Virus record (IMG/VR): IMGVR_UViG_3300010885_018528
Span: 1-22,076 of that record
Strand: one strand, 5' to 3'
DNA from: a virus
Length of the DNA stretch: 22,076 bases
Made by a program: the position numbers and the translations under genes. Under the pieces are notes generated by a model. That model was not told the DNA's origin. It made no database searches and worked only from the letters and a program-made list of their open reading frames with translations. Below are positions 1,893 through 19,431 of this stretch, one piece after another. Position 1 is the stretch's first letter. Each line of letters begins with the position of its first letter.

Positions 1893-2221
1893 TAAGAAGC
1901 CACAGTCCTTAATGCTGTTACAATTTCTAGGTACTGTGCAGGATTTGTAATACCTGCTAGTTCACTAGCTACTGCATTGAGCTCTTTGTAATCTGGTGGT
2001 TGACGGGTAGAAGAAACTTTGTAATTAAGAGCAGCAACAATTGCTTTGCCCGTTGTGCCTGCCCATTGATTGGCAGCACCTTGTTCATCTTGATAGATAG
2101 TTAATGCTGGATAGTTACCACCATTAGCTAATCGGTTAAGTTCATCACGAAGTGTAGAGCCAGGAAATCCATAGAGTGTGTAAGTTGTACCATTGTAAAC
2201 AGCTGTGCCGTATGTAGCCAT
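1892..2221 (-). CDS. small hypothetical virion-region protein (109 aa)
   Basis: I do not recognise this gene. The 109-residue product starts MATYGTAVYNGTTYTLYGFP, a glycine/tyrosine-rich N-terminus, followed by a helical segment (TLRDELNRLAN) and a helical C-terminal half ending in ITNPAQYLEIVTALRTVAS. No cysteines, signal peptide or membrane span are visible. Both ends overlap neighbours by one base (TAATG at 2221 and at 1892), so it is probably co-translated with the genes around it. Its position next to the connector-like protein suggests a structural or assembly role, but that is inference only. Confidence 0.7.
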   Translation of the reverse strand: MATYGTAVYNGTTYTLYGFPGSTLRDELNRLANGGNYPALTIYQDEQGAANQWAGTTGKAIVAALNYKVSSTRQPPDYKELNAVASELAGITNPAQYLEIVTALRTVAS

Positions 2222-2382
2222 TACTTACCTTTCTTTTTTGCAGCTCTCATATTATCTACAAGATTTGGATAAGATCTACCAGCAGATTTAGCAGCTGCTT
2301 TAGCAGAAGATTTTTGTGATGGTGTTAATGGTTTTGATTTTTTATTAGGATTAGGCGTATCCCAAACTTCTTTCTTAGCCAT
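2221..2382 (-). CDS. tiny basic protein (53 aa)
   Basis: ATG at 2380-2382 and TAA at 2221-2223 frame a 53-residue, Lys/Ala-rich protein beginning MAKKEVWDTPNPNKKSK and ending in AAKKKGK. It carries a motif, SYPNLVDNMRAA, that I associate with small proteins in other phage structural modules, but I cannot name a family. Both ends are TAATG overlaps with the adjacent genes, which strongly supports the frame despite the length. The very basic composition would suit binding of DNA or of an acidic capsid protein. No function is assigned. Confidence 0.65.
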   Translation of the reverse strand: MAKKEVWDTPNPNKKSKPLTPSQKSSAKAAAKSAGRSYPNLVDNMRAAKKKGK

Positions 2383-2642
2383 TACCATTTAACCTTGTCT
2401 GCCCAGTAAGCTGCACTCATTTTTCCTTTGGCAATATTTTTAGCATGACGAGCTTTGAATGAAGCTTGTCGTGCTGTTGGTTGACGATCACCGACCACGC
2501 CTTGTTGCCCAAACCTAATAAGTTTTACTTGTGTACCTTCTTTAGCTACAACAACATGTGACTTAGTAGGATGACTAGGTGTACGTTTTGGTTTATTAAA
2601 ACCGGATACACCGGCTTTCTTTAGACGTGGGTCGGCAGTCAT
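2382..2642 (-). CDS. conserved-looking basic protein with RHAKNIAKGKMSAAYWA motif (86 aa)
   Basis: The 86-residue product is very basic. Its N-terminus is Lys/Pro-rich (PRLKKAG, NKPKRTPSHPTKSH). The middle has VKLIRFGQQGVVGD and the C-terminus FKARHAKNIAKGKMSAAY then WADKVKW. From memory this C-terminal block recurs in small proteins of cyanophages and other environmental phages, where no function is established. The ATG at 2640-2642 has AAAGG at 2655-2659 as its ribosome site, inside the end of the preceding gene. The stop overlaps the next start by one base. The Arg/Lys/His-rich tail suggests nucleic-acid contact, for example a capsid-interior protein; this is inference. Confidence 0.7.
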   Translation of the reverse strand: MTADPRLKKAGVSGFNKPKRTPSHPTKSHVVVAKEGTQVKLIRFGQQGVVGDRQPTARQASFKARHAKNIAKGKMSAAYWADKVKW

Positions 2643-2651
2643 GATTTATCT

Positions 2652-2825
2652 ATTACCTTTTTTCTTTGGCATTAATACTTTTTTAAGATTTGGATTTGCA
2701 GCTTTAGCAGCAGGGCTAGCTTTACGTGTAGCCCCAGCTAGGATTGCTCCTGCTTTTTTAGATGAGATCCCTTGCTTCTTAGCAATCTGTTCTTGGGCTT
2801 TAGAAAAACCCATACCCATTGCCAT
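2652..2825 (-). CDS. tiny basic protein with QGISSKKAGAILAGATRKAS motif (57 aa)
   Basis: ATG 2823-2825 to TAA 2652-2654 encodes 57 residues starting MAMGMGFSKAQEQIAKKQG. A helix-turn-helix-like stretch (IAKKQGISSKKAGAILAGA) is followed by a Lys/Pro-rich tail (KANPNLKKVLMPKKKR). I know similar short proteins from other phage structural regions but cannot name a function. The start overlaps the upstream stop as TAATG at 2825, which supports the frame. Alternative in-frame ATGs lie at 2819 and 2813, so the exact start is uncertain by a few codons, but the overlap favours 2825. Confidence 0.62.
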
Positions 2826-2989
2826 TACTTAGCAATCTTGTTAAAGTTAGTAGGACCTTTAGCTTGTGTTTTGCCTTTAACTGTACCGCCAACAGCACTA
2901 TGTTGTTTAACGTTTACTGCTGCATTATCTACAGCAGCTGAACGAACACCAACTGGAGCGATGCCCGGTGTTGGAATTCTATTAGGCAT
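2825..2989 (-). CDS. tiny hypothetical protein (54 aa)
   Basis: ATG 2987-2989 to TAA 2825-2827 gives a 54-residue product, MPNRIPTPGIAPVG at the start and TQAKGPTNFNKIAK at the end. It has many Pro, Gly, Ala and Lys residues and no cysteines or membrane span, so it is probably a flexible basic peptide. I do not recognise it. Both ends are 1-base TAATG overlaps. That and its place in an uninterrupted run of same-strand small genes are the evidence for calling it a gene. Confidence 0.58.
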   Translation of the reverse strand: MPNRIPTPGIAPVGVRSAAVDNAAVNVKQHSAVGGTVKGKTQAKGPTNFNKIAK

Positions 2990-3183
2990 TACTTGGCACG
3001 TCCACCTTCAGGTTGTGTATAGATACCTTCAACAACTTCTGAAGGACCCATCATTGTTTGACCATAACGCGGTTCAACATAGTTAGCTGCAGCAGGTGCT
3101 ACACCACCAAAGAAATCCGCTTTGTTTACTGATGAGACATCTGTAGCTGCACTACGTGTCTTAGGTGACATCATATCTGACAT
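2989..3183 (-). CDS. small hypothetical protein (64 aa), start chosen at 3183
   Basis: The frame is open further upstream, but the start at 3181-3183 (MSDMMSPKTRSAATD) is preferred. It has an AAAAGGAAAA ribosome site directly upstream, and the longer version would overlap the cysteine-bearing 42-residue gene completely. The 64-residue protein contains KADFFGGVAPAAANYVEPRY and ends TQPEGGRAK. No domain is recognised. Its stop overlaps the next start by one base (TAATG at 2989), and its start follows the previous stop by a single base. Confidence 0.6.
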   Translation of the reverse strand: MSDMMSPKTRSAATDVSSVNKADFFGGVAPAAANYVEPRYGQTMMGPSEVVEGIYTQPEGGRAK

Positions 3184-3184
3184 G

Positions 3185-3313
3185 TTATTTTCCTTTTCCG
3201 TATGGGGGTGGTACATCGAAGCCTTGAATGACTGAAGCATCCTGACCCGGTGCAACTCTTACTGGTGCTTTAATTGTTACAAATGTATCAGCGCATCCAC
3301 ATTGTGTGCACAT
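3185..3313 (-). CDS. micro-protein with CxxCxC motif (42 aa)
   Basis: ATG 3311-3313 to TAA 3185-3187 encodes 42 residues. The N-terminus, MCTQCGCADTFVTIK, has three cysteines in six residues, a possible metal-binding or disulfide knuckle. The C-terminus is proline-rich (FDVPPPYGKGK). It sits exactly between two other small genes, two bases after one stop and one base before the next start. An AAAGG ribosome site lies about ten bases upstream. Function is unknown. The short length makes it less certain than its neighbours, but the exact packing favours a real gene. Confidence 0.55.
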   Translation of the reverse strand: MCTQCGCADTFVTIKAPVRVAPGQDASVIQGFDVPPPYGKGK

Positions 3314-3315
3314 AA

Positions 3316-3495
3316 TTACTTGCCTTTCTTTTTCATAATCTTATTGCGAAGAGCCATATCCATTTTCATGTCTTGTTTAGGAGTTGGCTTCTTTTTATCC
3401 ATTACAGTATCAGCTTTTTTAAAAGCTGCTTTTTGTCCGGGCTTCATACCCTTCATTACTTTTGCATCTTGTTTCTTATCATTGTGCATTGACAT
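3316..3495 (-). CDS. tiny Lys/Met-rich protein (59 aa)
   Basis: ATG 3493-3495 to TAA 3316-3318 encodes 59 residues. The product is unusually rich in lysine and methionine (MSMHNDKKQDAKVMKG, KQDMKMDMALRNKIMKKKGK), so it is strongly basic and probably helical. A TAGGAG ribosome site lies eight bases upstream, and the start also overlaps the upstream stop as TAATG at 3495. No family is recognised. A role in contacting DNA or an acidic scaffold is possible but unproven. Confidence 0.6.
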   Translation of the reverse strand: MSMHNDKKQDAKVMKGMKPGQKAAFKKADTVMDKKKPTPKQDMKMDMALRNKIMKKKGK

Positions 3496-4271: not shown

Positions 4272-5441
4272 TTAGTAGTCAATAGAAGAGGAAGTCTCTA
4301 CACGGTAGAGTGCTTCATCACGGTAGATGGAGAAGCCAAGTACGCCGTACCATCCAAGTGGACGGTGACGCATAAGCTTGTCAACAACCGGACCAATAAC
4401 AACATGTGGCTCTTCGGCAACAGCTTCAGCAAGTGCTTGCTGTCCAGCGAAGTATGTATTAAATACATTTGTTTCATGTGTAAAGGTAATTGATGCACCT
4501 GATGTAACACCAGCAGAAGTTACTGGAACGTCAACTGTAACGTTTAGACCACTGATGGATACAACGTTTGCGTTGGTTCCAACACCAGTTCCAGCAACAG
4601 CATCAGAAACCAAAATTCCTGAAGTAGATGTAACAGCAAGTACAGTTGCACCAGAAGCAGCAGAAGCTGTTGTGGTGGTTGTAGATGTTGTCTTAGCAGC
4701 ACCTTTAAAGTCACTGTACAAACGTGGTGATTCTACATAGAATGCACCTTCGTATGTTCCAATTTCTCCAGCCCAGATTTCATCATTAGCCTGGTATTCG
4801 TGTGGCTGACGCCATGAACCTACACCAGTTTCAGCACGAAGATCGTGAGCAACTTCTGGATGGATACCTGCCCAGTACAAAGATCCCTTACGAGGGATAG
4901 CTTTGTTGGTACGCAACTTAGCAACTGCCTTACGAGCAAGTGCAGAAGTAAAAGTATCTGAAGAAGTTATTGTTGTTGTTGAAGTACGTCCTCCTCCATA
5001 GATTACGTTAGCACCTGTACGAAGTACATTCTGTGCAATCGTATCAATAGAGTCAGCAAGGTTGAACGCAATAATGTTAGCAACAGCAGGATCTACATCA
5101 GCAAGGCTGAAGAGTTCCAATGCACGTGTAACAAGAACAGCGTTACCATACTCTTGAAGAGTAATGGTTGTGTATGTAGGGGTAGCCAGTGCTACTGCAT
5201 CTGGATCAACTGACTCAGTAAGACTTGTGATCTGCTGAGTTAAGTCAACGTAACGTTGCAATACAACTGAGGAACCCGGGATGCTCTGACGAGCAGGGGT
5301 CTTATCTGCAACATTGCGGATAAGAGGCTGAGCACGGAGTGCGAACTCGATAAGACGATCATACGCCTTTTGTACGAGACCTGCACTACCAACTGTACCT
5401 CCTAGAGAGGAGGACCCAGTATTGGTATATGCGTTTGCCAT
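4272..5441 (-). CDS. major capsid protein, N4-gp56 family, with beta-domain insertion
   Basis: The 389-residue protein matches the N4-gp56 family of HK97-fold major capsid proteins. Supporting segments are the N-terminal helix (YDRLIEFALRAQPLIRNVA), TPTYTTITLQEYGNAVLVTR near residues 87-106, ADSIDTIAQNVLRTGANVIY near 130-148, and the C-terminal HVVIGPVVDKLMRHRPLGWY. Residues about 250-322 are a Thr/Ala-rich insertion (SGATVLAVTSTSGILVSDAV, then GLNVTVDVPVT) that looks like an added surface beta domain. The start has a strong AAGGAGG ribosome site, as expected for the most abundant virion protein. The gene follows the scaffold gene by 37 bases and is followed by a stable hairpin. Multiple copies would form the icosahedral shell. 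Confidence 0.9.
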   Translation of the reverse strand: MANAYTNTGSSSLGGTVGSAGLVQKAYDRLIEFALRAQPLIRNVADKTPARQSIPGSSVVLQRYVDLTQQITSLTESVDPDAVALATPTYTTITLQEYGNAVLVTRALELFSLADVDPAVANIIAFNLADSIDTIAQNVLRTGANVIYGGGRTSTTTITSSDTFTSALARKAVAKLRTNKAIPRKGSLYWAGIHPEVAHDLRAETGVGSWRQPHEYQANDEIWAGEIGTYEGAFYVESPRLYSDFKGAAKTTSTTTTTASAASGATVLAVTSTSGILVSDAVAGTGVGTNANVVSISGLNVTVDVPVTSAGVTSGASITFTHETNVFNTYFAGQQALAEAVAEEPHVVIGPVVDKLMRHRPLGWYGVLGFSIYRDEALYRVETSSSIDY

Positions 5442-6086: not shown

Positions 6087-7385
6087 TTAGAACTTGCCTT
6101 GAACTGATGTTCCTAGTGAACCACCATAACCGGCATTTACATTAGCTTCAACTATTCCTGATCTACCAGAAAATTGTGCTTTCTCTAGTTCTTGTAACTC
6201 ACGTTTCTTACGTGCAGCTGATGCTGCACCTTTAAGATTAAATTGCTCTGCTTCTGCAGTAGCTTGGTCGTAGTTACCTTGTGATTGTTTACCATAAATT
6301 TGATTTAACTTACTAGCAATAGGAAGTTCTTGTCCTATATTTATATAACCTTTAATAGCATCTGCTTGTGTAACATTATTTAATGCTAAATTCATTGCAC
6401 TACTAGCAGATGTAGTAAATCCCTGATTAGCTGCAGCAGCACCAATTTGTGCTGATTGAGTTTTTATTGTAAGATCATTAAGATTTTGTGTAGGGTTAAG
6501 GTAATACTTCATAAGATCTGTATCGTTTATATTATAAAAATTCTTTAATTGTTTTTTAATTTCAGGATCAGCATTGACAACTTGATCTTCAACTAATTTA
6601 ATTCTACTTTGAAACTCAGGAGCAGATACATCTCCACCAATAATACTTGCCATACCAGCTTGTTTTTCTTTTGGTGTAACGCCAAAGTAATTTCCTAAAC
6701 CATAGGCATTTAAAGTTTCATTATATTGATTCTCTAAAGTTAAATATTCTGCTTCACTTAAAGCATTTAAACCTTTATTAACACGTCCATTTTTAGGATC
6801 ATAGTTACCGGCAAAACGAGTTTTATATTCTTGAGTTTGTTTAAGTAAAAGACTTGCTTCTTGAGGACCAGTATTATCTGCCATGTATTTTTCGATAACA
6901 GGAACAAGATCATCTAAACCATAATCTCTAAAAGCTTTTTTAAGTAAAGCATAAGCATCTAACTGTGTAGAATCTAATGAACTTAGTGCTGGTCCTGGAA
7001 GTGTTTCTCTTACAACTGGATTTTCTTCAGCTGTAAGAAGTTTTTCTGGAGTATAACCACCTGTAGGTGGTGTAATAATTCCAGTCTTAGAATCAATTGA
7101 TCCACCAAGTTGTGCTGAAAGTTTAGTATTACTAGCAATTACATCTTTTTTTTCTGCTACAGCAGCTGCTGTATTTTTATCAGCACTTTTAGTAGCAGCT
7201 TTCATGCTAGTTAAAATTTGATTCTGTTGACTTTGAATTTTTCTTGCTGCTATTTTAGCATCTGCTGCAGCTTTAGCTGCTGCTATTTTATTTGCAGCAT
7301 CTGTAGCTGCTAGTTTTTTTGCAGCAGCTGCAGCTTTAGCATCTTCTGCAGCTTTAGCTGCTGCTTGTTGAGCTGCTGTAGCCAT
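6087..7385 (-). CDS. putative internal virion / ejection protein (432 aa)
   Basis: The 432-residue protein starts with about 60 residues of Ala/Lys-rich coiled coil (AAQQAAAKAAEDAKAAAAAK). A mixed helical body follows (LLKKAFRDYGLDDLVPVIEKYM; EAEYLTLENQYNETLNAYG; IKKQLKNFYNINDTDLMKYY). Near the C-terminus is an Ala/Asn-rich helix (IGAAAANQGFTTSASSAMN) and a charged helix (AARKKRELQELEKAQ). No signal peptide or enzymatic motif is visible. It follows the 441- and 1791-residue genes with TAATG junctions, so the three are probably made together. By analogy with the internal virion protein sets of T7-like phages, it could be one of the proteins ejected into the cell with the DNA. That is inference from size, composition and grouping, not sequence similarity. 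Confidence 0.55.
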   Translation of the reverse strand: MATAAQQAAAKAAEDAKAAAAAKKLAATDAANKIAAAKAAADAKIAARKIQSQQNQILTSMKAATKSADKNTAAAVAEKKDVIASNTKLSAQLGGSIDSKTGIITPPTGGYTPEKLLTAEENPVVRETLPGPALSSLDSTQLDAYALLKKAFRDYGLDDLVPVIEKYMADNTGPQEASLLLKQTQEYKTRFAGNYDPKNGRVNKGLNALSEAEYLTLENQYNETLNAYGLGNYFGVTPKEKQAGMASIIGGDVSAPEFQSRIKLVEDQVVNADPEIKKQLKNFYNINDTDLMKYYLNPTQNLNDLTIKTQSAQIGAAAANQGFTTSASSAMNLALNNVTQADAIKGYINIGQELPIASKLNQIYGKQSQGNYDQATAEAEQFNLKGAASAARKKRELQELEKAQFSGRSGIVEANVNAGYGGSLGTSVQGKF

Positions 7386-8710
7386 TATTTAACCAATCCA
7401 AAACTACTAAGAATAGTATTAACATAACTAGATGCTTCTTCTTTAGCACCTGTTGTTTTAGCCCAACGTGGGTCTGCACGTAATTGTTTTTCAAAGTCAT
7501 GAATATTCATAACACCATCTTGTGGTTTGCCATTAACATCTTTATTTTGCAATGCTTTGGTTATATACTTATCATTAAGATTAATTGAACCAGGAGTTAA
7601 CTCTAATGTTTTTTCCATATGAGAAGCTAATGAACCAGCAATACTACTAACCTTTACACCCTGATCTATTTGATTAGATAAGTTAGGGTAATAAGCTTTA
7701 GCCATTGTGCGGATAGCTAACTTCTCAGGATCTTCTGCAGCAGTAGGTGTAATATTGCCAGCTCTTATTTTGCTAACAATATCTCTTTTTGCTACATCTG
7801 CACTGTAAGCAGGCAAAGAATAATCAGCAGCATAGTTTTGTAAATTAATAATTGATTTAGCAACGGAACCATTTGTTTTTAATATTTCAGCAGTAGACAT
7901 TTTCTCAATAACAGGTGCTAGTAATCCTGCTTGAATATGATCAAGGTCTTGCTGGGTTAAACCACCAGCACCAGTATTCATAGTTGATTTAGAAGTAGCA
8001 GTACTATCTGGTCCAGTTACTGTAGTAGATTGAGTTTGCACTCTAGTAGCAGCTTGCTTTTCAGCTGTATTAATTTCTTTAAGGTATTCTGCTTTTTCTT
8101 CTTTAGTTGCTTTACGTCCAATAGCATCAAAGAAATAACTATCAATTTGAAAAGAAGCTTGTGCTGCACTAGTAAGCTGTGCATTAACAGTGTAATCACT
8201 TACACTACCTGTAGTTCCAATGCTACCTGATTGACCAGCAGCTGATTTTGTCCATTGAGAAAATGGAATAAAATCATTCTGTTGTCCAGCTGACATGTTA
8301 GTGGCTTGATCAACACCATAATCCATAACATATCTAGTAAGACCAGATATAAATGCAGCTGAATTGTTAGAGGTATATTGTTTTTGATTTATATATTTGT
8401 TATTGTATAGCTGTTTAGATATAGCAGAACGTGTACCATTTGCATTGATATCTTTTAGATATCTTTGAACTGCACCTTCTGGTGCAGAATAAGGAGTTGC
8501 AACTCCTTTATCATCAACATAAAAATAAACCGGCAAATTAGCAGTACCCTGCACACCAGTTGTAGGATCTACAGTAGTAAATACCTGAGTTTGATAAGTC
8601 TTAGGATCTGTACTAACAGTATATTTAGCAGATCCTCCACCTTGAGGTGGCATAAAATCTTGAGATAATGTTCCTGTTTTTGGAGAGGAAGTTCCTGTAC
8701 TATCAGCCAT
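7385..8710 (-). CDS. putative internal virion / ejection protein (441 aa)
   Basis: This 441-residue protein has a Ser/Thr/Gly-rich N-terminus (MADSTGTSSPKTGTLSQDF), a beta-rich segment (GTANLPVYFYVDDKGVATPY), and a helical middle with IDSYFFDAIGRKATKEEKAE. A linker rich in Thr, Ser and Gly spans about residues 224-250, followed by a helical C-terminal half (LTQQDLDHIQAGLLAPVIEK, DFEKQLRADPRWAKT, ASSYVNTILSSFG). The segment DAIGRKATKEEKAEYLKEIN resembles EF-hand-like or helical repeats found in large phage virion proteins, but I cannot name a domain. The gene overlaps both neighbours by one base (TAATG at 8710 and 7385). The case for an ejection or virion role rests on this coupling and on the 1791-residue partner. 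Confidence 0.55.
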   Translation of the reverse strand: MADSTGTSSPKTGTLSQDFMPPQGGGSAKYTVSTDPKTYQTQVFTTVDPTTGVQGTANLPVYFYVDDKGVATPYSAPEGAVQRYLKDINANGTRSAISKQLYNNKYINQKQYTSNNSAAFISGLTRYVMDYGVDQATNMSAGQQNDFIPFSQWTKSAAGQSGSIGTTGSVSDYTVNAQLTSAAQASFQIDSYFFDAIGRKATKEEKAEYLKEINTAEKQAATRVQTQSTTVTGPDSTATSKSTMNTGAGGLTQQDLDHIQAGLLAPVIEKMSTAEILKTNGSVAKSIINLQNYAADYSLPAYSADVAKRDIVSKIRAGNITPTAAEDPEKLAIRTMAKAYYPNLSNQIDQGVKVSSIAGSLASHMEKTLELTPGSINLNDKYITKALQNKDVNGKPQDGVMNIHDFEKQLRADPRWAKTTGAKEEASSYVNTILSSFGLVK

Positions 8711-11700
8711 TACTTACCTCCAATCACTGCATATTTTTCAGGGACGTATTTATTCATTATGTTTTTAAAGATGTATTGATATGCTTGAGAAACTGCAGGA
8801 TTTAATTTTGCTATATTTTCTATACTTGCCTCAGCTTGATTACGTGAGTCTGTTTTAATTTCAGTAAAGTTAGGTAAACTTTTAAATTCTGGATCAGTAA
8901 CTTGGCTAACAAAACCATCCATAATTTTAATAGCTGCATTCATTTGAACACGATCTTCAGGATTAATAGGTGCATCTTTTAATGCAACTAATTGTTTAAG
9001 TTTGCCATAATCAACTTCAGATTCAGATTGAGTACTTGTGCTAGGGTTAGCAAGTTCTTTTGCTAAATCAGGATTGCTTGCTAATATACCTGCACGTTTT
9101 TGTGCAGCTTCTTTAATAACACGTTGACGATCTGAAAGATTTGAGTTACCTATTAACCCATCTTTTTCTTCATTAGCAACAGCAAAGTATCTTTCTTTAT
9201 CAGCAGCTACGCTTGCCTTTGCAAAATACTCATCTATTGTAGGAAGAGTAACCATATCTTGAGACTGCATCCATCCGTATACATAGTTATCAAAGCTTCC
9301 TATTTTAGGAGCAAAGACTAGTGCTGCAGTTCCATAACCGCCTTCACCATCTATCCATTTATTGTTTTGGATAGTCCAATCCATTACATTTTGATTTGCA
9401 TCAAGTAGCACTTGGTATTTTTTATTACTACGTGATGTAGTATAAATACTTTTACCAGGATTTTTTCCAATAAATATACCTGTAGCTAAAGAGTATGCAT
9501 CTTGTACATCTGGATAAGTATCTTTAATACCCTGTAAAATTTGAAAGAACTCTGGACGTATAGCAGTAATTCCTATTTTTTTATAGTAATCAGGTACTGT
9601 TTTGCTTTCTTGTAATGAAGGAGTAATAGGAGATATAAAGCCTAAAGCTGCTCGCATAAAAAGAATGCTATGTGTTGCTACTTTTACATTGCGAAGAAAA
9701 TCTCTTTTCTGTTGCACAGTAGGATTACTAGGTAATCCATTTCCAGCACCATATAGATAATTTATTCCAGCTTGTGCAGCAGTATTAAATTGTTTACTAG
9801 ATTCACTGAAAGGAAGCATGTCATATAGGTTACTGACTTGCATAGGAACAAGTGCTTTCCACCAACTTACATTGCTACCATTTTGACCTGTTATAATATT
9901 ATCAAAAATATTACCAGCTTTAACTAACTCTGAAGAACCAATTTCTTTTCCAGCATAATTTAATAAGTTACTTAAAGCCCATACAGATAGAGCAGAAGCA
10001 GGACCAGAGAACATTGGCTCTGAAGCATCAGCAGCTAAAGATGGATCAATAAGAGATAGTTTTAATTTAATATCATCAAATTGAACACCCTTATAAAGAT
10101 CATTGCGACCAGGGTAGAAGTAATTTAATACTGTTGAGATTGGTTTAAAAAGAATTGAATCAGTAGGAGCAATTATATACTCATCACCATTTGCATCTTT
10201 ATAAACAGCACCATTAGAAGCTACAGCAGTATGTACTAATCTCATACGATAAAAAGCAGTAAGTGGTTGTTGCTTACTCATGCGATAAGCACGTCGTGCA
10301 AAGTCTTCATTAGCACGATAGAATCTTCCTAGCGTAGGTAAAGATGCAGCAAGATTACTACGGATGCTTGGGTTGTCAGCAAATTTAAGAATGGTACTTG
10401 TAGCTTCATTCATGGAAATTTCTGCTCCCCATTTAGCAGCAAAATTTTCTGCCTGTTCTGTCATCCATTTTATACTATTTGGACTAGGCATAAAACCATT
10501 ATTTTTTTCTAATGCATCTTGAAATAAATTATTTAATGTTCTTTTTTTCATAAGATCTATAAAAGGTTTATTTTGTTTATAGATTCTAGCATAAGTAATA
10601 ACTAAAGCAGGTTGACGAAAAAATCCATTGATCTGTCTATCCATTGTTTCATAGCTATATTCTGTAATACGTTTTGATGCATCATCTTTAGTAAATGAAG
10701 CTACATCTGGATATTCAATACGAGTATTAACTCCACCTTTAATAGGATGTTTGTTAACAGTAAGTTTTTCAAACTCAGGAAACTCTATGGAGTTTACTGC
10801 AGTTTTCCAACGTGAAGAATCGGAAACTTTTTTAGGAGTATCTTTAAATGTTTTAGTGTAAGCTTCTTTAATTCGATTTAAAAGTTCTTCATTAAATCCT
10901 TTGTCACCATGAAAAGTAACATACATATCTGTAAGCATTGTTTCAATATGAACACGGGCAATTTGTACTGCATCTAATCCTTTTTGTTGAAGATTAAGTG
11001 TATCAACAAACATTGAATTAAAACTTTCAATACGTTCAGGGTTTGTTATTGTACGAGTAATACCATTAATTGAATCTTCTTCTATACCAACATCTTTTAA
11101 TAAAGCATTAGTTGCTCTTCTTAAATCAAGTTTAGTTTTTAGTGCATTGTTTTTAAAGAATGCAGGAACTGGATTGAATATAAAAGCTTCATCTGCAATT
11201 TTTCCATCATTAATAGGAATACTATTATAAGAAAAACGTAATCCAAAATTATCTATGTGAGATAAAGCAATTAATTTTTGTAGTTGAATATCTTTGCTTT
11301 CTTGATCTAATCCAGACCAAGGATTTTTTTCTACATTAACTAATTTTTTTTCAGCAGCAGCTTCTAATTCTTTTGCTGGTACATTATAAAACTTTTTGCT
11401 AACTTTTAAACCCTTAAGTTCACCTAGTTTGCCAACATAATCTACAGCTTTATCTACAACGCTAGGTTCAAACATAATATTACGAATATCATCTACAGTA
11501 GATGAACCAGTTAAACCAGTTTTTGCAGTTAAAGCATTGACAGTTCCACTAAGAAAATCTGGACTATATTTAACACCATTAATAAGTGCTTCTTTATCAC
11601 CTTGAAGTCCTTTAGGTAAATTTCCTAAATAAACATCCCATGCTCGGGATGTTATTGCTTCACGTTTTAAATAATTAGCAACCTCAGTTACAGGAATAGG

Positions 11701-14085
11701 ACGTTTAAATTTTACAGATAACTCTTCCGCAAGATTTTCAATAATATCAGAACGGTCTTGTATAGTAAAATATCTTTCAGGTCCGCCATTTTTAAAAAGA
11801 TTATTATAAATTGCTTTTATTGGTCCAACTGAATCTCTATTACCAGCAACAGCAGTAAGAACTTTGCCTTCTCTACGCCCACCACCAGAAAAAAATCTTA
11901 ATACATCTTGCAATGGTTGATTCCATAGATACATGAATGCTTCATCAGCAGTTGAACGTATACCCAAACGTGGAAGCAAAGTTTCAAAAGACCAAAAGTT
12001 AGTATATTTTTTAAGTAACTGGTTTTTTGTTGCTTTATCTACAGCACTCCAGATTCTATGTGTTTCACCAAAGTCTCTAAGCTGAGCAATTTTTGAAAAA
12101 TCAAGAGGAGCTATAGCATTAGTAAGCATTGATGGTTGTGGTGTACCAGATTTAGCAAGCAAAGGTACATCGTCTATATATTTAACTGTATTCTTGTCAA
12201 CCATACCAACAAAATGTGATGGTAGTTCTGTAATACCAGATGAACCAAAACCATTTTCATCATTTGTAAATTTATTTAATACTTGTTGTATGTACTCTCT
12301 GCCTTTTTCAGTACCTTCTAATCCCATTTTTTGCATGTAAGCAAAATAAATATTACGGACTGTAGCAATCTGTTGATTAACTGGAGCTTTTACAAAAGTT
12401 TCAGCAAGAATTTTAGCTTGATCACGTGGTAAAACTAATCGTGTTATGTTAATAAAATTGTTAATAGTTTTTTCTGCATCATTACCATATAGAATAAACC
12501 CACCTTGAGGTGATCTAGCCAATAGATTACCTAATTTATATCCAAGTCTTTGAGTTTTGCTGATATTGTCAGCCATATTATTTAATAAAGCTGCATCTCT
12601 ATTTATTCCTTGGTCTTCTGTAGGACCAACAGTACTAAGAATTTTCCAATTTTCTTCACGTGTTTTTTCAGCAGCACTAATTGCTGCTTGTGTTTCAACA
12701 TTTTTAAAACTAGGATTAAATATAGCATCAAGACTTTTAGCTAAACCTTGATTTATAATACGGTTGTTACGTGCAGTAAGAATACCATTACGATAAAAGT
12801 TAGTACCATCTACACGACCATTAAGAAGCATATGAGTATTTTCAATATCTTGAAAAAATTCTTCTGCTTCTTTTGCATTTACTATAGGCTTGTTTGGTCC
12901 ATTACCTTTAACAAGTGTATTAATAATTTCACGGTTATCATAACCAGGTACAGTGAATTTAAAATTTTCGTAAGCTGCTGCTTTTTCTGTATCGTTTTTT
13001 GCATCTACAACTTTTTGAACAGAGGGTCCAATTGTATTATTCCAAAGATCTGCAATATCTTTTCTTGCAAATATTTGATTTGTTTTTTCTGCAAGACGAC
13101 CTTCTGATGCTGCCTTGTATATACTATCTGCAAGTTTAGTTCCTTTAGAACCTGCACTTCCTCCACCAGTAATCCATGTTAATGGATCGGCAATGACTGA
13201 ATAAATAAAATCAAGTCCACCAGCTTCAGCTAATTTAGTTTCAGTATTATTTTGAAGATAATTAGTTTTAGGATTATATTTTTTTCCTTGTTGAAGAGCA
13301 GCATTTTGTTGTGCCATTCTGCTAAATTTATTAGCAAGTGCTCCGCCTGTTTCTGGAACTGTTCCTTCATTATGATTTTTATCAGAACGAACAAGAGAAT
13401 TACCAGGAGTAAATCTAGCAAGTTTTACATCATCAATAATTTTTTGAAAGTTAGGATCATCAAGAGAAGCAGTAAGAGCTTTACCAAGTTCAGGATCCCA
13501 AGCTCCACCTTTGCTATACTCTTGCATAATTTCAGCTGGAGTTTTACCAGCAACAATTCCCATTGCAACAGCAGCAGTAGCTTTGCCATATGTTTTATTA
13601 AGTCTTGCTACATCATTAGGATTGTAAAGATCTTTACCTTGAAAAGCTTCACTCCATGTTCCTGGAGAAAATAAATTTTTTCCTAAACTTGTAGTTTCAA
13701 AACCTACACGCATTGGTGTAGCAAGAGTTTTTTCATAAGTAGGAGCAACTTTACTGTATCCATACAGTATTGGACTTGCAGCAAATTTTAAAACATTTTT
13801 TCCAAAGTCAACTATTTTAGAACCAAAACTAGGAGCACCTTGAAGATATGGGTCGTTACCAAACAATGTATTAATATCTTGTTTAGCAGGATCAGATAAT
13901 TTAGCATATTCATTTTGTGCTACATTTTGCGGTAACTTACGTAATTGAATTCCTTTTTGATATGCAAAAGCAAGTGACTCTGACATTGCTATTTCTTGAG
14001 GTGTAGCATTAGCAGCTTGTAGTGCTTGAGCTGTATTAGGCAATACTTCAGATACTACAGGTTTAATTGGAGTTGACCAAGGCAT
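8710..14085 (-). CDS. giant virion-associated protein (1791 aa), putative internal/ejection protein
   Basis: This is the largest gene here and takes up about a quarter of the window. The 1791 residues are mostly helical, without signal peptide, cysteine clusters or collagen-like repeats. Notable segments: SESLAFAYQKGIQLRKLPQN near the N-terminus; LGRFYRANEDFARRAYRMSK near residue 1260, followed by FYRMRLVHTAVASNG; moderately hydrophobic stretches such as SALSVWALSNLLNYAG and SILFMRAALGFISPIT in the last quarter; and a charged, Ala-rich C-terminus. I found no recognisable lysozyme, transglycosylase or single-subunit RNA polymerase motifs. Size and virion-gene context resemble the giant ejected proteins of podoviruses (T7 gp16, N4 virion RNA polymerase). 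Placement between portal and scaffold is unusual. Its sequence is more AT-rich, by eye, than terminase or portal. Both ends have TAATG overlaps. A tape-measure role is the alternative. Confidence 0.6.
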   Translation of the reverse strand: MPWSTPIKPVVSEVLPNTAQALQAANATPQEIAMSESLAFAYQKGIQLRKLPQNVAQNEYAKLSDPAKQDINTLFGNDPYLQGAPSFGSKIVDFGKNVLKFAASPILYGYSKVAPTYEKTLATPMRVGFETTSLGKNLFSPGTWSEAFQGKDLYNPNDVARLNKTYGKATAAVAMGIVAGKTPAEIMQEYSKGGAWDPELGKALTASLDDPNFQKIIDDVKLARFTPGNSLVRSDKNHNEGTVPETGGALANKFSRMAQQNAALQQGKKYNPKTNYLQNNTETKLAEAGGLDFIYSVIADPLTWITGGGSAGSKGTKLADSIYKAASEGRLAEKTNQIFARKDIADLWNNTIGPSVQKVVDAKNDTEKAAAYENFKFTVPGYDNREIINTLVKGNGPNKPIVNAKEAEEFFQDIENTHMLLNGRVDGTNFYRNGILTARNNRIINQGLAKSLDAIFNPSFKNVETQAAISAAEKTREENWKILSTVGPTEDQGINRDAALLNNMADNISKTQRLGYKLGNLLARSPQGGFILYGNDAEKTINNFINITRLVLPRDQAKILAETFVKAPVNQQIATVRNIYFAYMQKMGLEGTEKGREYIQQVLNKFTNDENGFGSSGITELPSHFVGMVDKNTVKYIDDVPLLAKSGTPQPSMLTNAIAPLDFSKIAQLRDFGETHRIWSAVDKATKNQLLKKYTNFWSFETLLPRLGIRSTADEAFMYLWNQPLQDVLRFFSGGGRREGKVLTAVAGNRDSVGPIKAIYNNLFKNGGPERYFTIQDRSDIIENLAEELSVKFKRPIPVTEVANYLKREAITSRAWDVYLGNLPKGLQGDKEALINGVKYSPDFLSGTVNALTAKTGLTGSSTVDDIRNIMFEPSVVDKAVDYVGKLGELKGLKVSKKFYNVPAKELEAAAEKKLVNVEKNPWSGLDQESKDIQLQKLIALSHIDNFGLRFSYNSIPINDGKIADEAFIFNPVPAFFKNNALKTKLDLRRATNALLKDVGIEEDSINGITRTITNPERIESFNSMFVDTLNLQQKGLDAVQIARVHIETMLTDMYVTFHGDKGFNEELLNRIKEAYTKTFKDTPKKVSDSSRWKTAVNSIEFPEFEKLTVNKHPIKGGVNTRIEYPDVASFTKDDASKRITEYSYETMDRQINGFFRQPALVITYARIYKQNKPFIDLMKKRTLNNLFQDALEKNNGFMPSPNSIKWMTEQAENFAAKWGAEISMNEATSTILKFADNPSIRSNLAASLPTLGRFYRANEDFARRAYRMSKQQPLTAFYRMRLVHTAVASNGAVYKDANGDEYIIAPTDSILFKPISTVLNYFYPGRNDLYKGVQFDDIKLKLSLIDPSLAADASEPMFSGPASALSVWALSNLLNYAGKEIGSSELVKAGNIFDNIITGQNGSNVSWWKALVPMQVSNLYDMLPFSESSKQFNTAAQAGINYLYGAGNGLPSNPTVQQKRDFLRNVKVATHSILFMRAALGFISPITPSLQESKTVPDYYKKIGITAIRPEFFQILQGIKDTYPDVQDAYSLATGIFIGKNPGKSIYTTSRSNKKYQVLLDANQNVMDWTIQNNKWIDGEGGYGTAALVFAPKIGSFDNYVYGWMQSQDMVTLPTIDEYFAKASVAADKERYFAVANEEKDGLIGNSNLSDRQRVIKEAAQKRAGILASNPDLAKELANPSTSTQSESEVDYGKLKQLVALKDAPINPEDRVQMNAAIKIMDGFVSQVTDPEFKSLPNFTEIKTDSRNQAEASIENIAKLNPAVSQAYQYIFKNIMNKYVPEKYAVIGGK

Positions 14086-14510
14086 TAGTTACCGCTATCT
14101 GCTAGGCGACGGTAGATAAGTTCTGCTTCTCCGCTAGGATCAAATTGAGCAATACGACGCATTATTTGGCTAGGTGATCTTTGCATACTAGGCATAGGTA
14201 ACATAGCTTCAGATCCAGCTCCAGGCCCTATATCAACCCCTGTAGTAATAGGTTCATCAGGACGTTGAGTTGGAGCTGTTAATGGAATAGTAGGAAGTTG
14301 TGGAGTAACAGGTGCACCTGCTAAAGGTGCAGCCTGTTCATTGTCCATATTTTTTTGACCTTCTCCATAGCCAAGACCAGGCATGTACTTAGGTGCTTGT
14401 GGTTGCATGCCATCAATGGCTCCACCATCAGTACGTTGTGAAAGAGCACCCGGTCCTGAGACCGGTGCTGGATTAGATGGCTGACGGTATCCGCCTTGCT
14501 GTCCTGCCAT
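14085..14510 (-). CDS. Pro/Gly/Gln-rich small protein downstream of portal (141 aa)
   Basis: The 141-residue product is low in complexity and probably largely disordered for its first 100 residues (MAGQQGGYRQPSNPAPVSGP, many Pro, Gly, Gln). It ends in a short charged helix (SQIMRRIAQFDPSGEAELIY). I do not recognise a family. A disordered arm with a terminal helix suits a small protein that binds the portal or capsid interior. It lies two genes after the portal, and both ends are TAATG overlaps. Confidence 0.65.
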   Translation of the reverse strand: MAGQQGGYRQPSNPAPVSGPGALSQRTDGGAIDGMQPQAPKYMPGLGYGEGQKNMDNEQAAPLAGAPVTPQLPTIPLTAPTQRPDEPITTGVDIGPGAGSEAMLPMPSMQRSPSQIMRRIAQFDPSGEAELIYRRLADSGN

Positions 14511-14751: not shown

Positions 14752-16557
14752 CTATCCAACTGTTCGACGATTAACCGTTCTTACGCTTGCATTTCCTTTG
14801 CCTGATACATTCAAACTACTTAAAAGACTTTCTAATTCTGGACGTTGCGTTACTATTCCAGGACCTTTTATTGGTTCTTGTGGTCCTCCCATTTGTTCTG
14901 GAGAAGCGGCTCCTGCCGGAGCTTCCCCGGGAGCAGAAGGGGATTGTTGCTCAACCGATTGTTGGGGACCAGCAGGAGGATTCTCAGGTGTAAATACTTC
15001 AAGGATTACATCTTCTAAAACTCTACCCTTTTGACGTTGTTTAATTACTTCAGCAATTTTTTGAACAATGTTTGTTGGGTCTTGTCCTTGTGCAGCCATC
15101 TGTGGGATAGCTTGTGTGTAAGCTGTTAATGCACCCATAAGCGATGTACGCAAATCTTCGGTTTCAATTTTTTCTTGTTCTAATGTTACGTTTACATTAA
15201 ATGGCAATTCTCTCATTGCCATATCTTTAGAGATTAATTTTCCTCCAAGAGCTTGGAGCATAAAGATTAATCCTTGTGCTGGGTTAAGACCAGCCAACAT
15301 GCCGTACCGCACGTCTGCTGAGTAATCGCTTTTAATATCTTTCGATGGAGTATAGGTGATGGCATATGGAGAACCAGCATCGGTACCACGAATAGTTTTC
15401 TCGACATTAAATATCTTCTCATCTACTTCAAAACAAAGGGAAATAACATCACGTAAAGCTGTAGTAAAGATAGCTTGTGTAGATTTAATCTGACTATCAA
15501 ATGCACCTTGTAATGCTTCAACTCCTGCACCTGTAACAATAGATGCTTTAATATTACCAGTACGTGATTCAGGATAACGAGAACCTACACGTAGTTCTTG
15601 GTTAAGAATCTCTTGCTCATTAAATGCACCAGCTGGAATTTCTAAAGCAACACGGCGAACTCCAGCTGGGTTAGCTGTGCGGATAACCGCATCTCCACCA
15701 AGCTGTAATTCTTGTACATCGTTAGGCAAAACGATTGGTGCTTGAACGGATTTTTCTGCAGCTTCCATAGCCATCAGAGCAAATCGGTTACGCAGTAACT
15801 GAATACCTAGCACATCATCAAACTGCCCACGTAGTTCACCATCAGGACTTGGTCGTCTTGCAACAATAACCATCATCTTACCAAGCGGATTAGGAGCTTG
15901 GGATAAGACAAAGTTAGTACGAGATGGTAAATAAAGAACGCTTTGATCTTTATCATAATAACGAATCATTTCAATCATGCCATTAAGATCTTGCTTGTAC
16001 CCATCACGTCCAAGAATCTGACGTTCAAATTCAGGGAACTGAGCAACCAGTTCTCCTAGCGTCATAGAATAACGCTTGACAAAGGCTATGCAACGTCCGT
16101 AGCGATCAAACTCAGGGTAAGCCCCTATTGGATTTTCTAGGCGTATGCGTGGCAACTTTGCTTCTTCATCCAATTCAATAATGAATGGAAGAAAACCATA
16201 AGTAACAAACATATCAGCACCGTTATACATATTGACTTCCATTTCCGAATGACGGAAATAGTTAGCAGCAATACGAGTACGTTTGTCAGCAAACGTACGA
16301 GCACGGTCTGATGTTTGATTTACTGCCGAACAATTAATTGCTGGCAGTGGTGCAATCATTTCTGCAAGATCACGGGCAACTACATCAATAAAGTTAGCAA
16401 CCACATTTTGATCAATACCATCTGGAAAAAAGTTAGGGTAGACTTGTGAGATCTTTCCCTGACGTACCATCTGTACATCACCGTTACGCATATCACGGCT
16501 AGTACTGCGATAACGCAATGCCTGTACACGTGACACTACTTGTGGAATAGTTAACAC
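14752..16557 (-). CDS. portal protein
   Basis: This 601-residue protein has the size, composition and gene position of a phage portal, the 12-subunit ring at one capsid vertex that binds the terminase and passes DNA. Segments fitting a portal core include DQNVVANFIDVVARDLAEMI near residues 48-67, PIGAYPEFDRYGRCIAFVKR near 142-162, FDDVLGIQLLRNRFALMAME, and SIVTGAGVEALQGAFDSQIK. The last 90 residues are Pro/Gly/Gln-rich and probably flexible. Translation starts at GTG 16555-16557, seven bases after an AGGA ribosome site; no better ATG is available without losing conserved-looking sequence. It follows the terminase and two small genes. Confidence 0.83.
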   Translation of the reverse strand: MLTIPQVVSRVQALRYRSTSRDMRNGDVQMVRQGKISQVYPNFFPDGIDQNVVANFIDVVARDLAEMIAPLPAINCSAVNQTSDRARTFADKRTRIAANYFRHSEMEVNMYNGADMFVTYGFLPFIIELDEEAKLPRIRLENPIGAYPEFDRYGRCIAFVKRYSMTLGELVAQFPEFERQILGRDGYKQDLNGMIEMIRYYDKDQSVLYLPSRTNFVLSQAPNPLGKMMVIVARRPSPDGELRGQFDDVLGIQLLRNRFALMAMEAAEKSVQAPIVLPNDVQELQLGGDAVIRTANPAGVRRVALEIPAGAFNEQEILNQELRVGSRYPESRTGNIKASIVTGAGVEALQGAFDSQIKSTQAIFTTALRDVISLCFEVDEKIFNVEKTIRGTDAGSPYAITYTPSKDIKSDYSADVRYGMLAGLNPAQGLIFMLQALGGKLISKDMAMRELPFNVNVTLEQEKIETEDLRTSLMGALTAYTQAIPQMAAQGQDPTNIVQKIAEVIKQRQKGRVLEDVILEVFTPENPPAGPQQSVEQQSPSAPGEAPAGAASPEQMGGPQEPIKGPGIVTQRPELESLLSSLNVSGKGNASVRTVNRRTVG

Positions 16558-16577: not shown

Positions 16578-16592
16578 TTACTTCATGCGAGG
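16578..16592 (-). repeat. 15-bp direct repeat at gene 3' end, copy 1
   Basis: TTACTTCATGCGAGG is identical here and at 17150-17164. Each copy covers the stop codon and the last four codons of a gene, so two adjacent proteins end in the same PRMK residues. Confidence 0.75.
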
Positions 16593-17141
16593 GAGAAGTC
16601 CTTCTCCTCCGCCTTCTAAGCTTGGTATAAACTCTCCTACATCAGAATGACCACCAGCATGTTGACCACCAAGACGTCCAGCTTGTGATAATGAAGTAGA
16701 TGTTCTTATATGTTGTTGTGCTTCAGCTTCTGTCATAGGTTTAACATTAGGATTAGGAGTAGTTCTCCAAGGTTCTTCACTTGATGATGTTTGTGAGTTA
16801 ACTTGAATATTTGGAACTTTACCTGATGGACCGTACTTGCTACGCTCTCCAAGTGCACGTTGTCTAGCTATTTCTTCTGCTGTAAATTTTTGACCAGAAG
16901 GTGGTTTAGTTCCTTTAACTACAGGAGCAGGAATACTAGGACGTGGCTTTGGTGTAGGATTTGCTTGCCTTACAGTTACCTTTGTAGTATCAACTTTATT
17001 TGGTTGAGATACTGGTTTTAATGGTGTACCAGATTTAAAAGCATTATACAAACCTCTAGCTAAATCTTCTTTAGGTTTGCTTGTACTAGTTTCACGTGCA
17101 CCACGTGAAGCAGAACCTTGCGATGATCCCATTTTAACCAT
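16578..17141 (-). CDS. Pro/Lys-rich protein with GGQHxGGHSDVG C-terminal tail (187 aa)
   Basis: The 187-residue protein is Pro/Ser/Thr/Lys-rich and probably disordered over much of its length (NPTPKPRPSIPAPVVKGTKP). A short charged helix is visible (FTAEEIARQRALGERSK). Its last 32 residues contain LGGQHAGGHSDVGEF and end GGGEGLLPRMK. This tail is shared with the adjacent 124-residue protein encoded just upstream. The ATG at 17139-17141 has AAGGAC six bases upstream. It lies between terminase and portal, a place often held by head-assembly or packaging factors. No family is recognised. Confidence 0.68.
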   Translation of the reverse strand: MVKMGSSQGSASRGARETSTSKPKEDLARGLYNAFKSGTPLKPVSQPNKVDTTKVTVRQANPTPKPRPSIPAPVVKGTKPPSGQKFTAEEIARQRALGERSKYGPSGKVPNIQVNSQTSSSEEPWRTTPNPNVKPMTEAEAQQHIRTSTSLSQAGRLGGQHAGGHSDVGEFIPSLEGGGEGLLPRMK

Positions 17142-17149
17142 GATTGTCC

Positions 17150-17164
17150 TTACTTCATGCGAGG
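17150..17164 (-). repeat. 15-bp direct repeat at gene 3' end, copy 2
   Basis: Second copy of TTACTTCATGCGAGG, 572 bases from the first. Together with the similar protein tails it suggests duplication of a 3' gene segment. Confidence 0.75.
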
Positions 17165-17524
17165 AATTAAGCCACCCTCGCCACCTTCGCCTTGCATTAT
17201 ACTTGTTGGCATTGATTGTCCTACATCTGAATGTCCACCCATATGCTGTCCACCTAGTTGACCTGAACGACCCTGAAGACCAGAAGTGCGAGTTGAAATG
17301 CCACGCGAAATGTTATCTAGTTTTTGCATTTTAACTGCGTTTTTACTACCGCGGCTATTAGGAGTCGCATTGAATCCACCACGTAAACCAGTAGCCATCG
17401 ACTCAACTGAAAAATCATGTGAACGCTCTATCTTATCCCAGTGAAGATCTTCGGCAATTTTACGAATTTCTTCGGGAGTTCTCTTGGTTCCACGGTCGGA
17501 GATGTCTTTCTTAAACACAGCCAT
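17150..17524 (-). CDS. small protein with GGQHxGGHSDVG C-terminal tail (124 aa), start chosen at 17524
   Basis: ATG 17522-17524 (MAVFKKDISDRGTKR) with AGGA eight bases upstream is preferred over a longer frame that would overlap the terminase end. The 124-residue protein has a charged helical N-terminal half (TPEEIRKIAEDLHWDKIERS) and a basic middle (NSRGSKNAVKMQKLD). Its tail contains LGGQHMGGHSDVGQS and ends GEGGEGGLIPRMK. The tail matches that of the next gene, while the N-terminal parts do not match visibly. It follows the terminase by 8 bases. It could be a packaging or head factor, but its function is unknown. Confidence 0.68.
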   Translation of the reverse strand: MAVFKKDISDRGTKRTPEEIRKIAEDLHWDKIERSHDFSVESMATGLRGGFNATPNSRGSKNAVKMQKLDNISRGISTRTSGLQGRSGQLGGQHMGGHSDVGQSMPTSIMQGEGGEGGLIPRMK

Positions 17525-17532
17525 GATAGTTC

Positions 17533-19431
17533 CTATCCGTAAATGTCTGACCATTGCTCTGCAAAAGCATCGTCAAGGTTTATTGAGTAACGTGCATCCA
17601 TCTGTGACTTAGTAGCCCACCGATTGGTAGCATACGGAGACACTTGTGTAAACTTTTGTATCATTTCACGGGCACGAATGACCGCAAACCATAAAGCCAT
17701 TACACAGTCTGTCGGACCTTTAGTGTCCGGCTTCCATGTAATTAACTGTTGTACCAATGCTTTAATGCCCTCTGATCCTTCAGATGATGGCAGTTCGATA
17801 AGGTTATTGTCTTGATGGATTCCTTCGCGCATGGTCCCGAATAAAGCCGACATAGAAGCGACACCGAATGAGGTGTCCCATTTGTTCTTGCCGGTGAAGT
17901 GTGAGTTAAGCCTAACCCCTCGTCCTGCGAGCCAGTTGCGTAAATCTTCATCAAGTTCAAATGCTTTTTGAAAAGCATTAATTTCAATTCTGACTTCTTG
18001 TGGTTTGTACTTTTCAGTATAAGCCTCGATAGCTGCTCGGATTTTTTGGTAGTTACCTTCAGCCATATTAAGACAATCCAGTACATAAATTTTTCCATCT
18101 ATCTTGTTATAGGTAATAGCAGTTAAGGCGGTACGTCCAGCAATAGCTGGGTCCATGCCAATAATGGTATAACCTTCTACATCTCTAGGATGACCTACAG
18201 CTCCAGGTCTGAGGGTTCCAACTCGTCTAGCTCCATTAACAGATCCTTGCACCAAGGCTGGTGGAAAGACTGAATCTTCTTGGATGTCTTCTTGCTGATA
18301 GACAAGAGCCCATGTACTAGGTGTAACTTCTGACCTACGTTTAAAGAGGGCTGACCCATCCCATTTAGGGAAGAATCCATTTTCATTAGGAGGGATGTCT
18401 TCATCCCCATCCCACGCGACGTCTGATTCTTTCCAGAGAGTAACCCAGTCTTCCGGTTTTTCCGCAAACTCCAAGACTGCCGGCATTCCCATATAAGTAA
18501 AAGGACTACGACCGCCAGACCAATGCTTTGGATTACGTAGTTCCTTATAGAGATCATTCGCTGCAATTCGGGTTCCCACCACTAATAGTTTACCGTTTTT
18601 ACCTAAACGGGTAATAACTTCTTTTTGTAGCCAGTTAATCTGCTTGTCCCATTCATGGGCATTGGCAGTTGTAATAACGTCATCAAGTATGATAAGATCG
18701 GCACGTGCACCATAGATCTGACCACCCATACCCAGTGCTTGAATGGTAGGGTCTTTTTCGCTTGAGTTACGCGCATCGCCCCCGAGGTATACCGTGTCAG
18801 TTCGCCAAGTGTCTGCGTCTTCTTTCCAGCCCCCCTCAGGTCCATAAGCATTTTGAAGCTTAAGCCAACGAGGGTGCGAAAGACGCTGCTTGATTGCGTA
18901 CACGAATTCACGTGCTTTGACTAAGGTCTTCGAGACCACGATGATCCGAATGTTAGGGTCTAGGGCGATACGGTAAGTTGAATAGTTCACCGTAATAACG
19001 GTGGACTTGGCATGCTCAGGTGGAACGTTGATTAAGATTCTTGAACGTTCACCTGGCTCATAGATCATAGAAGGGTGAACCCATGAAGGCTCCCTCGACT
19101 CCAGTAAATCTACCCAGTCCTGATGATGAGGGAATACCGTCTGATCTAAAAATATTTTAGAAAACTCTGAGAAGTTAAGTTCAGATTTATCTTTGCCTAT
19201 GCTCGACAAGGAAGTTGTCTCGCCTCGTTCCTTTGCCTCAGCTAAAGCTGTAGCAAAGTCCGAGTCACGCAGTAACCACTGTCTTAACGTATCTGGCTTT
19301 TTATTGACTGCTGACATAGCTTGGTGCGTAGTCGCACCCTGCTCTACCATAGCTAAGACTTTAGCTTTAGACTCCGCCAACGCCTTAACCTTGAAATGTT
19401 CCCCACCCGTACCAAATCCTTTGCCCGGCAT
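17533..19431 (-). CDS. terminase large subunit (TerL) with N-terminal TerS-like helix-turn-helix
   Basis: TerL is the packaging motor: an ATPase that pumps DNA through the portal and a nuclease that cuts concatemers. In the 632-residue protein the Walker A-like loop is NVPPEHAKS (residues 135-143), the Walker B is LIILDD (246-251) and the coupling motif is VVGTR (284-288). The RNase H-like nuclease has MDPAIAG with D427, RIEINAF with E483, and TDCVMALWFA with D575. Residues about 22-66 form an extra helix-turn-helix-like block (MVEQGATTHQAMSAVNKKPD, then LRQWLLRDSDFATALAEA), of the kind normally seen in small terminase subunits or phage helix-turn-helix domains. The Walker A has Ala where most have Gly (P-E-H-A-K-S). 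ATG 19429-19431 follows AGGAGA. It is the first gene of the leftward module, and no separate small-subunit gene is visible. Confidence 0.93.
   Translation of the reverse strand: MPGKGFGTGGEHFKVKALAESKAKVLAMVEQGATTHQAMSAVNKKPDTLRQWLLRDSDFATALAEAKERGETTSLSSIGKDKSELNFSEFSKIFLDQTVFPHHQDWVDLLESREPSWVHPSMIYEPGERSRILINVPPEHAKSTVITVNYSTYRIALDPNIRIIVVSKTLVKAREFVYAIKQRLSHPRWLKLQNAYGPEGGWKEDADTWRTDTVYLGGDARNSSEKDPTIQALGMGGQIYGARADLIILDDVITTANAHEWDKQINWLQKEVITRLGKNGKLLVVGTRIAANDLYKELRNPKHWSGGRSPFTYMGMPAVLEFAEKPEDWVTLWKESDVAWDGDEDIPPNENGFFPKWDGSALFKRRSEVTPSTWALVYQQEDIQEDSVFPPALVQGSVNGARRVGTLRPGAVGHPRDVEGYTIIGMDPAIAGRTALTAITYNKIDGKIYVLDCLNMAEGNYQKIRAAIEAYTEKYKPQEVRIEINAFQKAFELDEDLRNWLAGRGVRLNSHFTGKNKWDTSFGVASMSALFGTMREGIHQDNNLIELPSSEGSEGIKALVQQLITWKPDTKGPTDCVMALWFAVIRAREMIQKFTQVSPYATNRWATKSQMDARYSINLDDAFAEQWSDIYG

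Follow-up and report, generated by a model that had tools for sequence, protein, structure and literature searches.

A short peptide motif shared by otherwise unrelated small proteins encoded between the terminase and portal genes of a phage group

Two adjacent genes of the virus record IMGVR_UViG_3300010885_018528 (IMG/VR; positions 1 to 22,076, the whole stretch analysed, hereafter the window) encode proteins which share a C-terminal tail but not their bodies. The core of that tail, M2 ([LIV]GGxHxGG[HN], usually followed by SDV), recurs in related phages, on exchangeable proteins encoded at the same place, between the genes for the terminase large subunit (TerL) and the portal protein. Our leading reading, which we hold tentatively, is that M2 serves as a tether by which minor virion (cargo) proteins, themselves interchangeable, attach to a conserved component of the assembling particle; from the genomic pattern we infer both that partner and the presence of the proteins in the virion.

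Genes A and B and their surroundings

The two open reading frames are called on the minus strand, at 17150-17524 (gene A; 124 aa, pI 9.9) and 16578-17141 (gene B; 187 aa, pI 10.2). They lie between TerL (17533-19431, minus strand; phrog_38, 1.1e-67), the upstream border of what we call the slot, and the portal gene (14752-16557, minus strand; phrog_104, 1.4e-24), its downstream border. Both proteins are basic; the body of A has no recognised relatives, and that of B, which is predicted to be disordered, resembles slot proteins of two relatives (L004 and L186). The C-terminal sequences of the pair are LGGQHAGGHSDVGEFIPSLEGGGEGLLPRMK and LGGQHMGGHSDVGQSMPTSIMQGEGGEGGLIPRMK, and only the last ~35 residues are common to them: LGGQH(A/M)GGHSDVG, a spacer and GEG-GL(I/L)PRMK. 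M2 of gene A, LGGQHMGGHSDVG, is encoded at 17219-17257 and its C-terminal end, GEGGEGGLIPRMK, at 17153-17191; the corresponding minus-strand segments of gene B are LGGQHAGGHSDVG (16635-16673) and GGGEGLLPRMK (16581-16613).

Aligned at full length, A and B match with an E value of 2e-13, carried by the tail; with the tail removed the bodies give only E 0.14, and thus A and B are not ordinary paralogues. This agrees with the sequence-only reading, which had described a common tail on unrelated bodies and had named in advance a full-length alignment revealing ordinary paralogues as a possible refutation; homology outside the tail was not found. It is highly improbable, we consider, that the two are divergent copies of one slot protein of which only the tail can still be recognised: their tandem position and their basic, disordered composition would suit such an origin, but the bodies do not match, body B has relatives of its own with other ends (L004), and L028 shows that a body which carries M2 in some relatives can lack it in another. 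Neither protein matched a Pfam profile, and A had only a weak PHROGs match, to a family of unknown function (phrog_19407, E 0.004). A small terminase identity for A or B was rejected, with no match of that kind in the PHROGs and Pfam profile searches. A profile built from ten M2 proteins matched no PDB chain, and the AlphaFold2 model of gene B has no confident fold (pLDDT 54, pTM 0.16).

The same early reading had reported an exact 15-bp repeat over both stop codons, and this too was recovered: TTACTTCATGCGAGG occurs at 17150-17164 in gene A and at 16578-16592 in gene B, in each case covering the PRMK codons together with the stop, and zero copies are expected by chance. The repeat extends into two imperfect repeats of the tail, of 39 nt (72%) and 52 nt (75%).

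The minus-strand structural module runs in the order TerL, A, B, portal, 77-aa, 141-aa, 1791-aa, 441-aa, 432-aa and 160-aa (scaffold-like) proteins and major capsid protein (4272-5441, minus strand; PF13252, 2.6e-9; phrog_1357, 1.7e-78). The shared strand and tight spacing suggest that the slot genes would be expressed late, with the packaging genes. The 141-aa protein (14085-14510, minus strand; phrog_8200, 2.4e-21), downstream of the portal, is cysteine-free and kept in most relatives; the 1791-, 441- and 432-aa proteins (6087-14085, minus strand) are cysteine-free or nearly so and are probable internal or ejection proteins. Cysteine is at zero or near zero in these four, the scaffold and the major capsid protein, and at ~0.5% in TerL and portal. 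The C-terminal domain of the 441-aa protein recurs in proteins of Streptomyces phages that have an NLPC_P60 or SLT domain, as would be expected of an ejection machine; the fold of this protein had no solved-structure match, and its relatives were found only in Streptomyces and uncultured phages. Between the capsid and adaptor genes (2221-3495) the window also encodes tiny lysine-rich, cysteine-free proteins with no significant Pfam family.

The slot and the motif in relatives

We compared 142 distinct TerL-portal junctions, gathered by IMG/VR searches (two TerL queries and one portal query), by a motif scan and from a few named phages. The slot is empty (0-11 bp) in 40 of them, and nearly all others hold 1-4 open reading frames. 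Homologous pairs of these frames have pN < pS in 117/119 cases (median ratio 0.44), so the slot frames of relatives are real genes. Their products form a distinct composition class, being basic (pI > 9.5 in 99%), cysteine-free (zero Cys in 19,895 residues) and disordered (~90% by the charge-hydropathy rule, against 18% of controls); among M2 proteins 97% have a pI > 9.5, against 15% of controls. Streptomyces endolysin aside, recognised domains were found in only 2 of 80 slot representatives, an OmpA-like domain (L080, 3457-3984) and a LysM domain (L184, 5904-6659), both peptidoglycan-binding and both in proteins without M2. No signal peptide was obvious by eye at the N-termini of the slot proteins with wall domains, and the simplest route to the wall for a wall-binding slot protein would therefore be to travel with the virion.

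What recurs in the relatives is the core LGGxHxGGHSDV; the PRMK end is specific to the window phage. Of the 146 distinct slot proteins, 32 contain M2, against a mean of 0.01 after shuffling, and a strict DNA pattern for it, scanned against all of IMG/VR, found 17 stretches, every one in a TerL-portal slot. No M2 lay outside the slot in 24 longer contigs, a scan in which two motif-bearing frames were masked by the gene-calling overlap rule, yet visible in the junction extraction. The expectation that the tail would recur in relatives, always at C-termini near terminase and portal, therefore held for recurrence and place and failed for the terminus: M2 is usually C-terminal (median relative position in the protein 0.71), but it is at or near the N-terminus in L001, L092, L098 and L199. 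A 40-aa tail query had no convincing match among 50,697 named phages; two Listeria records (E 7) were dismissed as chance.

The full form of the motif is [LIV]GGxHxGG[HN]SDV. Nearly every position of it is encoded by a mixture of synonymous codons, and the peptide is almost invariant; together with pN < pS in the slot genes, this means that conservation lies in the peptide rather than in the DNA, and that selection acts on the protein. A DNA-level signal, such as a cos/pac or recombination site, is ruled out by the synonymous variation.

Slot proteins carry other short modules. A second mini-motif, ~GGIxGxGGxNVxxxY(K/R), occurs in 15 of them, against a mean of 0.23 after shuffling; its carriers, which include proteins of L101, L132, L151, L158 and L172, belong mostly to phages that lack M2; K(I/V)NSNPNPTPAK and RPPxAPGxRxWTP are further examples.

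Exchange around the motif and its distribution

Comparisons among relatives show that the tail moves between bodies and that ends match within a genome, which supports the earlier reading of a common tail on different bodies. Window B and L004 have a body in common and differ in their ends; so do L097B and L013 (TKNK versus IPLP) and, in their tails, L097A and L014; and L028 is the body of L172A, L090 and L196 without M2. Where a slot holds two M2 proteins, the ends match within the genome in 3 of 4 cases (permutation p 0.008), as PRMK in the window, TKNK in L097 and RENM in L186. The constant element across these exchanges is the M2 core. A dependence of the end sequence on the portal or TerL was not borne out, and a matching of ends to either protein is ruled out by L190 and L196, which are almost identical in TerL and portal and have different ends.

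It could be argued that M2 is a passenger without selected function, the tails matching through duplication and exchange of 3′ segments beside a conserved gene. The matching ends and the identical 15 bp at both stops are what such a process would leave; but synonymous sites in the motif vary freely around an almost invariant peptide, slot genes have pN < pS, and M2 is kept across a deep clade while its surroundings change, which together make this account very unlikely.

On a tree of TerL plus portal, M2 requires 5 changes (shuffled 30.6) and empty slots 27. M2 or a close variant is present in 26 of the 27 rows of the window clade, none of which has an empty slot; the exception (L021) ends in RIGGHAN, which may be an M2 remnant. 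The rest of the core group has 24 of 78 slots empty, against zero in the window clade (Fisher p 0.0004, with kinship ignored). M2 thus looks like a fixed requirement in the window clade, with the bodies turning over. In the wider group M2 is missing from most members and the slot is often empty, so M2 is not a universal part of assembly. L148 (with M2) and L149 (with an empty slot) are almost identical in TerL and portal; neither of these proteins, therefore, needs M2. The families best associated with M2 are clade markers, and no gene family was found that is present exactly when M2 is; the partner of M2 would accordingly be something that every member of the group possesses, or else a host component.

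These distributions bear on a further alternative, in which M2 would bind TerL or portal while DNA is being packaged, much as a small terminase or a motor clamp might, without being retained in the virion. The strict TerL-portal location of the motif would favour such a regulator, which we nevertheless regard as distinctly unlikely given the L148/L149 pair and the many relatives, the majority, that have the same TerL and portal families without M2. TerL also appears to carry a weak TerS-like HTH of its own at the N-terminus (residues 14-68; phrog_4044, terminase small subunit, 0.001; HTH_23, 0.02, below the cut-off).

The main rival to a tether for cargo is a host-directed role, with M2 binding a conserved host target (a cell-envelope, lysis, defence or regulatory protein) from an ordinary accessory-gene slot, and nothing packaged. 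Short motifs in disordered proteins are frequent binders of host proteins; the slot is dispensable in the many relatives where it is empty; Streptomyces relatives hold an endolysin there; and L080 and L184 have wall-binding domains in it. The window clade, moreover, may have M2 through common descent, for a reason that concerns the host. Against this, the slot sits between packaging and head genes, and one clade has come close to fixing M2 on a changing set of bodies, which is not how moron genes typically behave. The M2 pattern had 13 scattered matches in GTDB genomes, 3 of them in open frames, on GC-rich contigs (GC 0.64-0.72); none of the 13 was beside TerL or portal and their number is as chance predicts, so that no M2-like host protein was found beyond chance and host mimicry by M2 was rejected. 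We judge the host-directed role unlikely, although it is the alternative that most deserves attention.

A possible tether for virion cargo

Returning to the tethering of cargo, we propose that the TerL-portal junction of this actinophage group may serve as a slot for cargo genes, whose products are accessory proteins of the basic, cysteine-free and disordered class, and that M2 would act as a short linear motif tethering any body to one conserved component, be it portal vertex, scaffold or ejection complex. The slot proteins would then become minor virion components and, as ejection proceeds, act at the host envelope or across it. Recombination around the motif would exchange bodies and end sequences, and gene pairs with matching ends, such as A and B, could arise by duplication or conversion of a 3′ segment. 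The resemblance of the slot proteins to cysteine-poor ejection-type, capsid and scaffold proteins points, indirectly, to the virion; as a counterpoint, low cysteine is also expected of disordered proteins. The domains recognised in the slot all bind or cut peptidoglycan: OmpA, LysM and, in Streptomyces relatives, the Amidase_2 endolysin. A docking tag, as the sequence-only reading had supposed, is a plausible interpretation of the tail, and one strengthened by the present comparison.

The internal proteins IPI, IPII and IPIII of T4 carry a capsid-targeting sequence, an N-terminal propeptide cut by gp21 (PMC9026906). As with M2, a short sequence is common to small, basic, non-essential proteins which are otherwise divergent and differ from one related phage to another. 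The two sequences are unrelated, and that of T4 is N-terminal, whereas M2 is mostly C-terminal and sometimes N-terminal or internal; the T4 internal proteins have been shown in the virion, whereas the M2 proteins are putative virion components. The T4 tag is cleaved by gp21, whereas searches of 17 contigs revealed no prohead protease of the S78 or Clp type (the S77 search had no positive control), so that a cleaved, T4-style tag seems unlikely. At most, M2 would work like the capsid-targeting sequence of T4.

In several relatives, Planktophila phage AprF5 among them, the portal is followed immediately downstream by a gene with a weak match to the proteasome/HslV-like Ntn-hydrolases (PF00227; L101, 12302-12838; L264, 2123-2653; also G004, G005, G009, G011, G013 and G014); this gene is not in the window and is possibly a maturation protease. 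In the sister-clade contigs G011, G013 and G014 the portal tblastn alignment spans one in-frame TAA, probably by running beyond the true stop.

The Streptomyces Beephvirinae (FlowerPower and Immanuel3) have the order TerL, endolysin, portal, with homologous TerL (44%) and portal (42%) and an insert at the same junction. That insert acts on peptidoglycan, being an Amidase_2 endolysin with a weak PG_binding_1 match; it is a folded amidase, whereas the window slot holds disordered M2 proteins. The closest isolates are LanE43AprE7 and LanE43AprF5 (TerL 61%, portal 73-76%), which infect 'Ca. Planktophila' (PMC10202952); their slot encodes two small basic proteins with the mini-motif RTTGGIMGPGGRNVTPTYRP and without M2. 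Given the host of these isolates, the window phage is itself likely to infect a member of the Nanopelagicales or another actinobacterium.

With M2 and its slot, relatives of the first phage isolates on Nanopelagicales have a peptide that is conserved and a precisely placed locus that is hypervariable. The Nanopelagicales are very abundant freshwater bacteria. It is possible, if doubtful, that M2 is an undescribed virion-targeting peptide of ~13 residues, portable, usable at either protein end and without T4-style cleavage, which loads interchangeable disordered proteins in or onto freshwater actinophage particles. The docking idea is directly testable, because natural swaps exist, in which one body occurs with and without the tag or with different ends. 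Should M2 prove to be a docking tag, this would amount to a second, T4-independent route for loading proteins onto a phage particle, and would offer a handle on the accessory proteins that these phages deliver.
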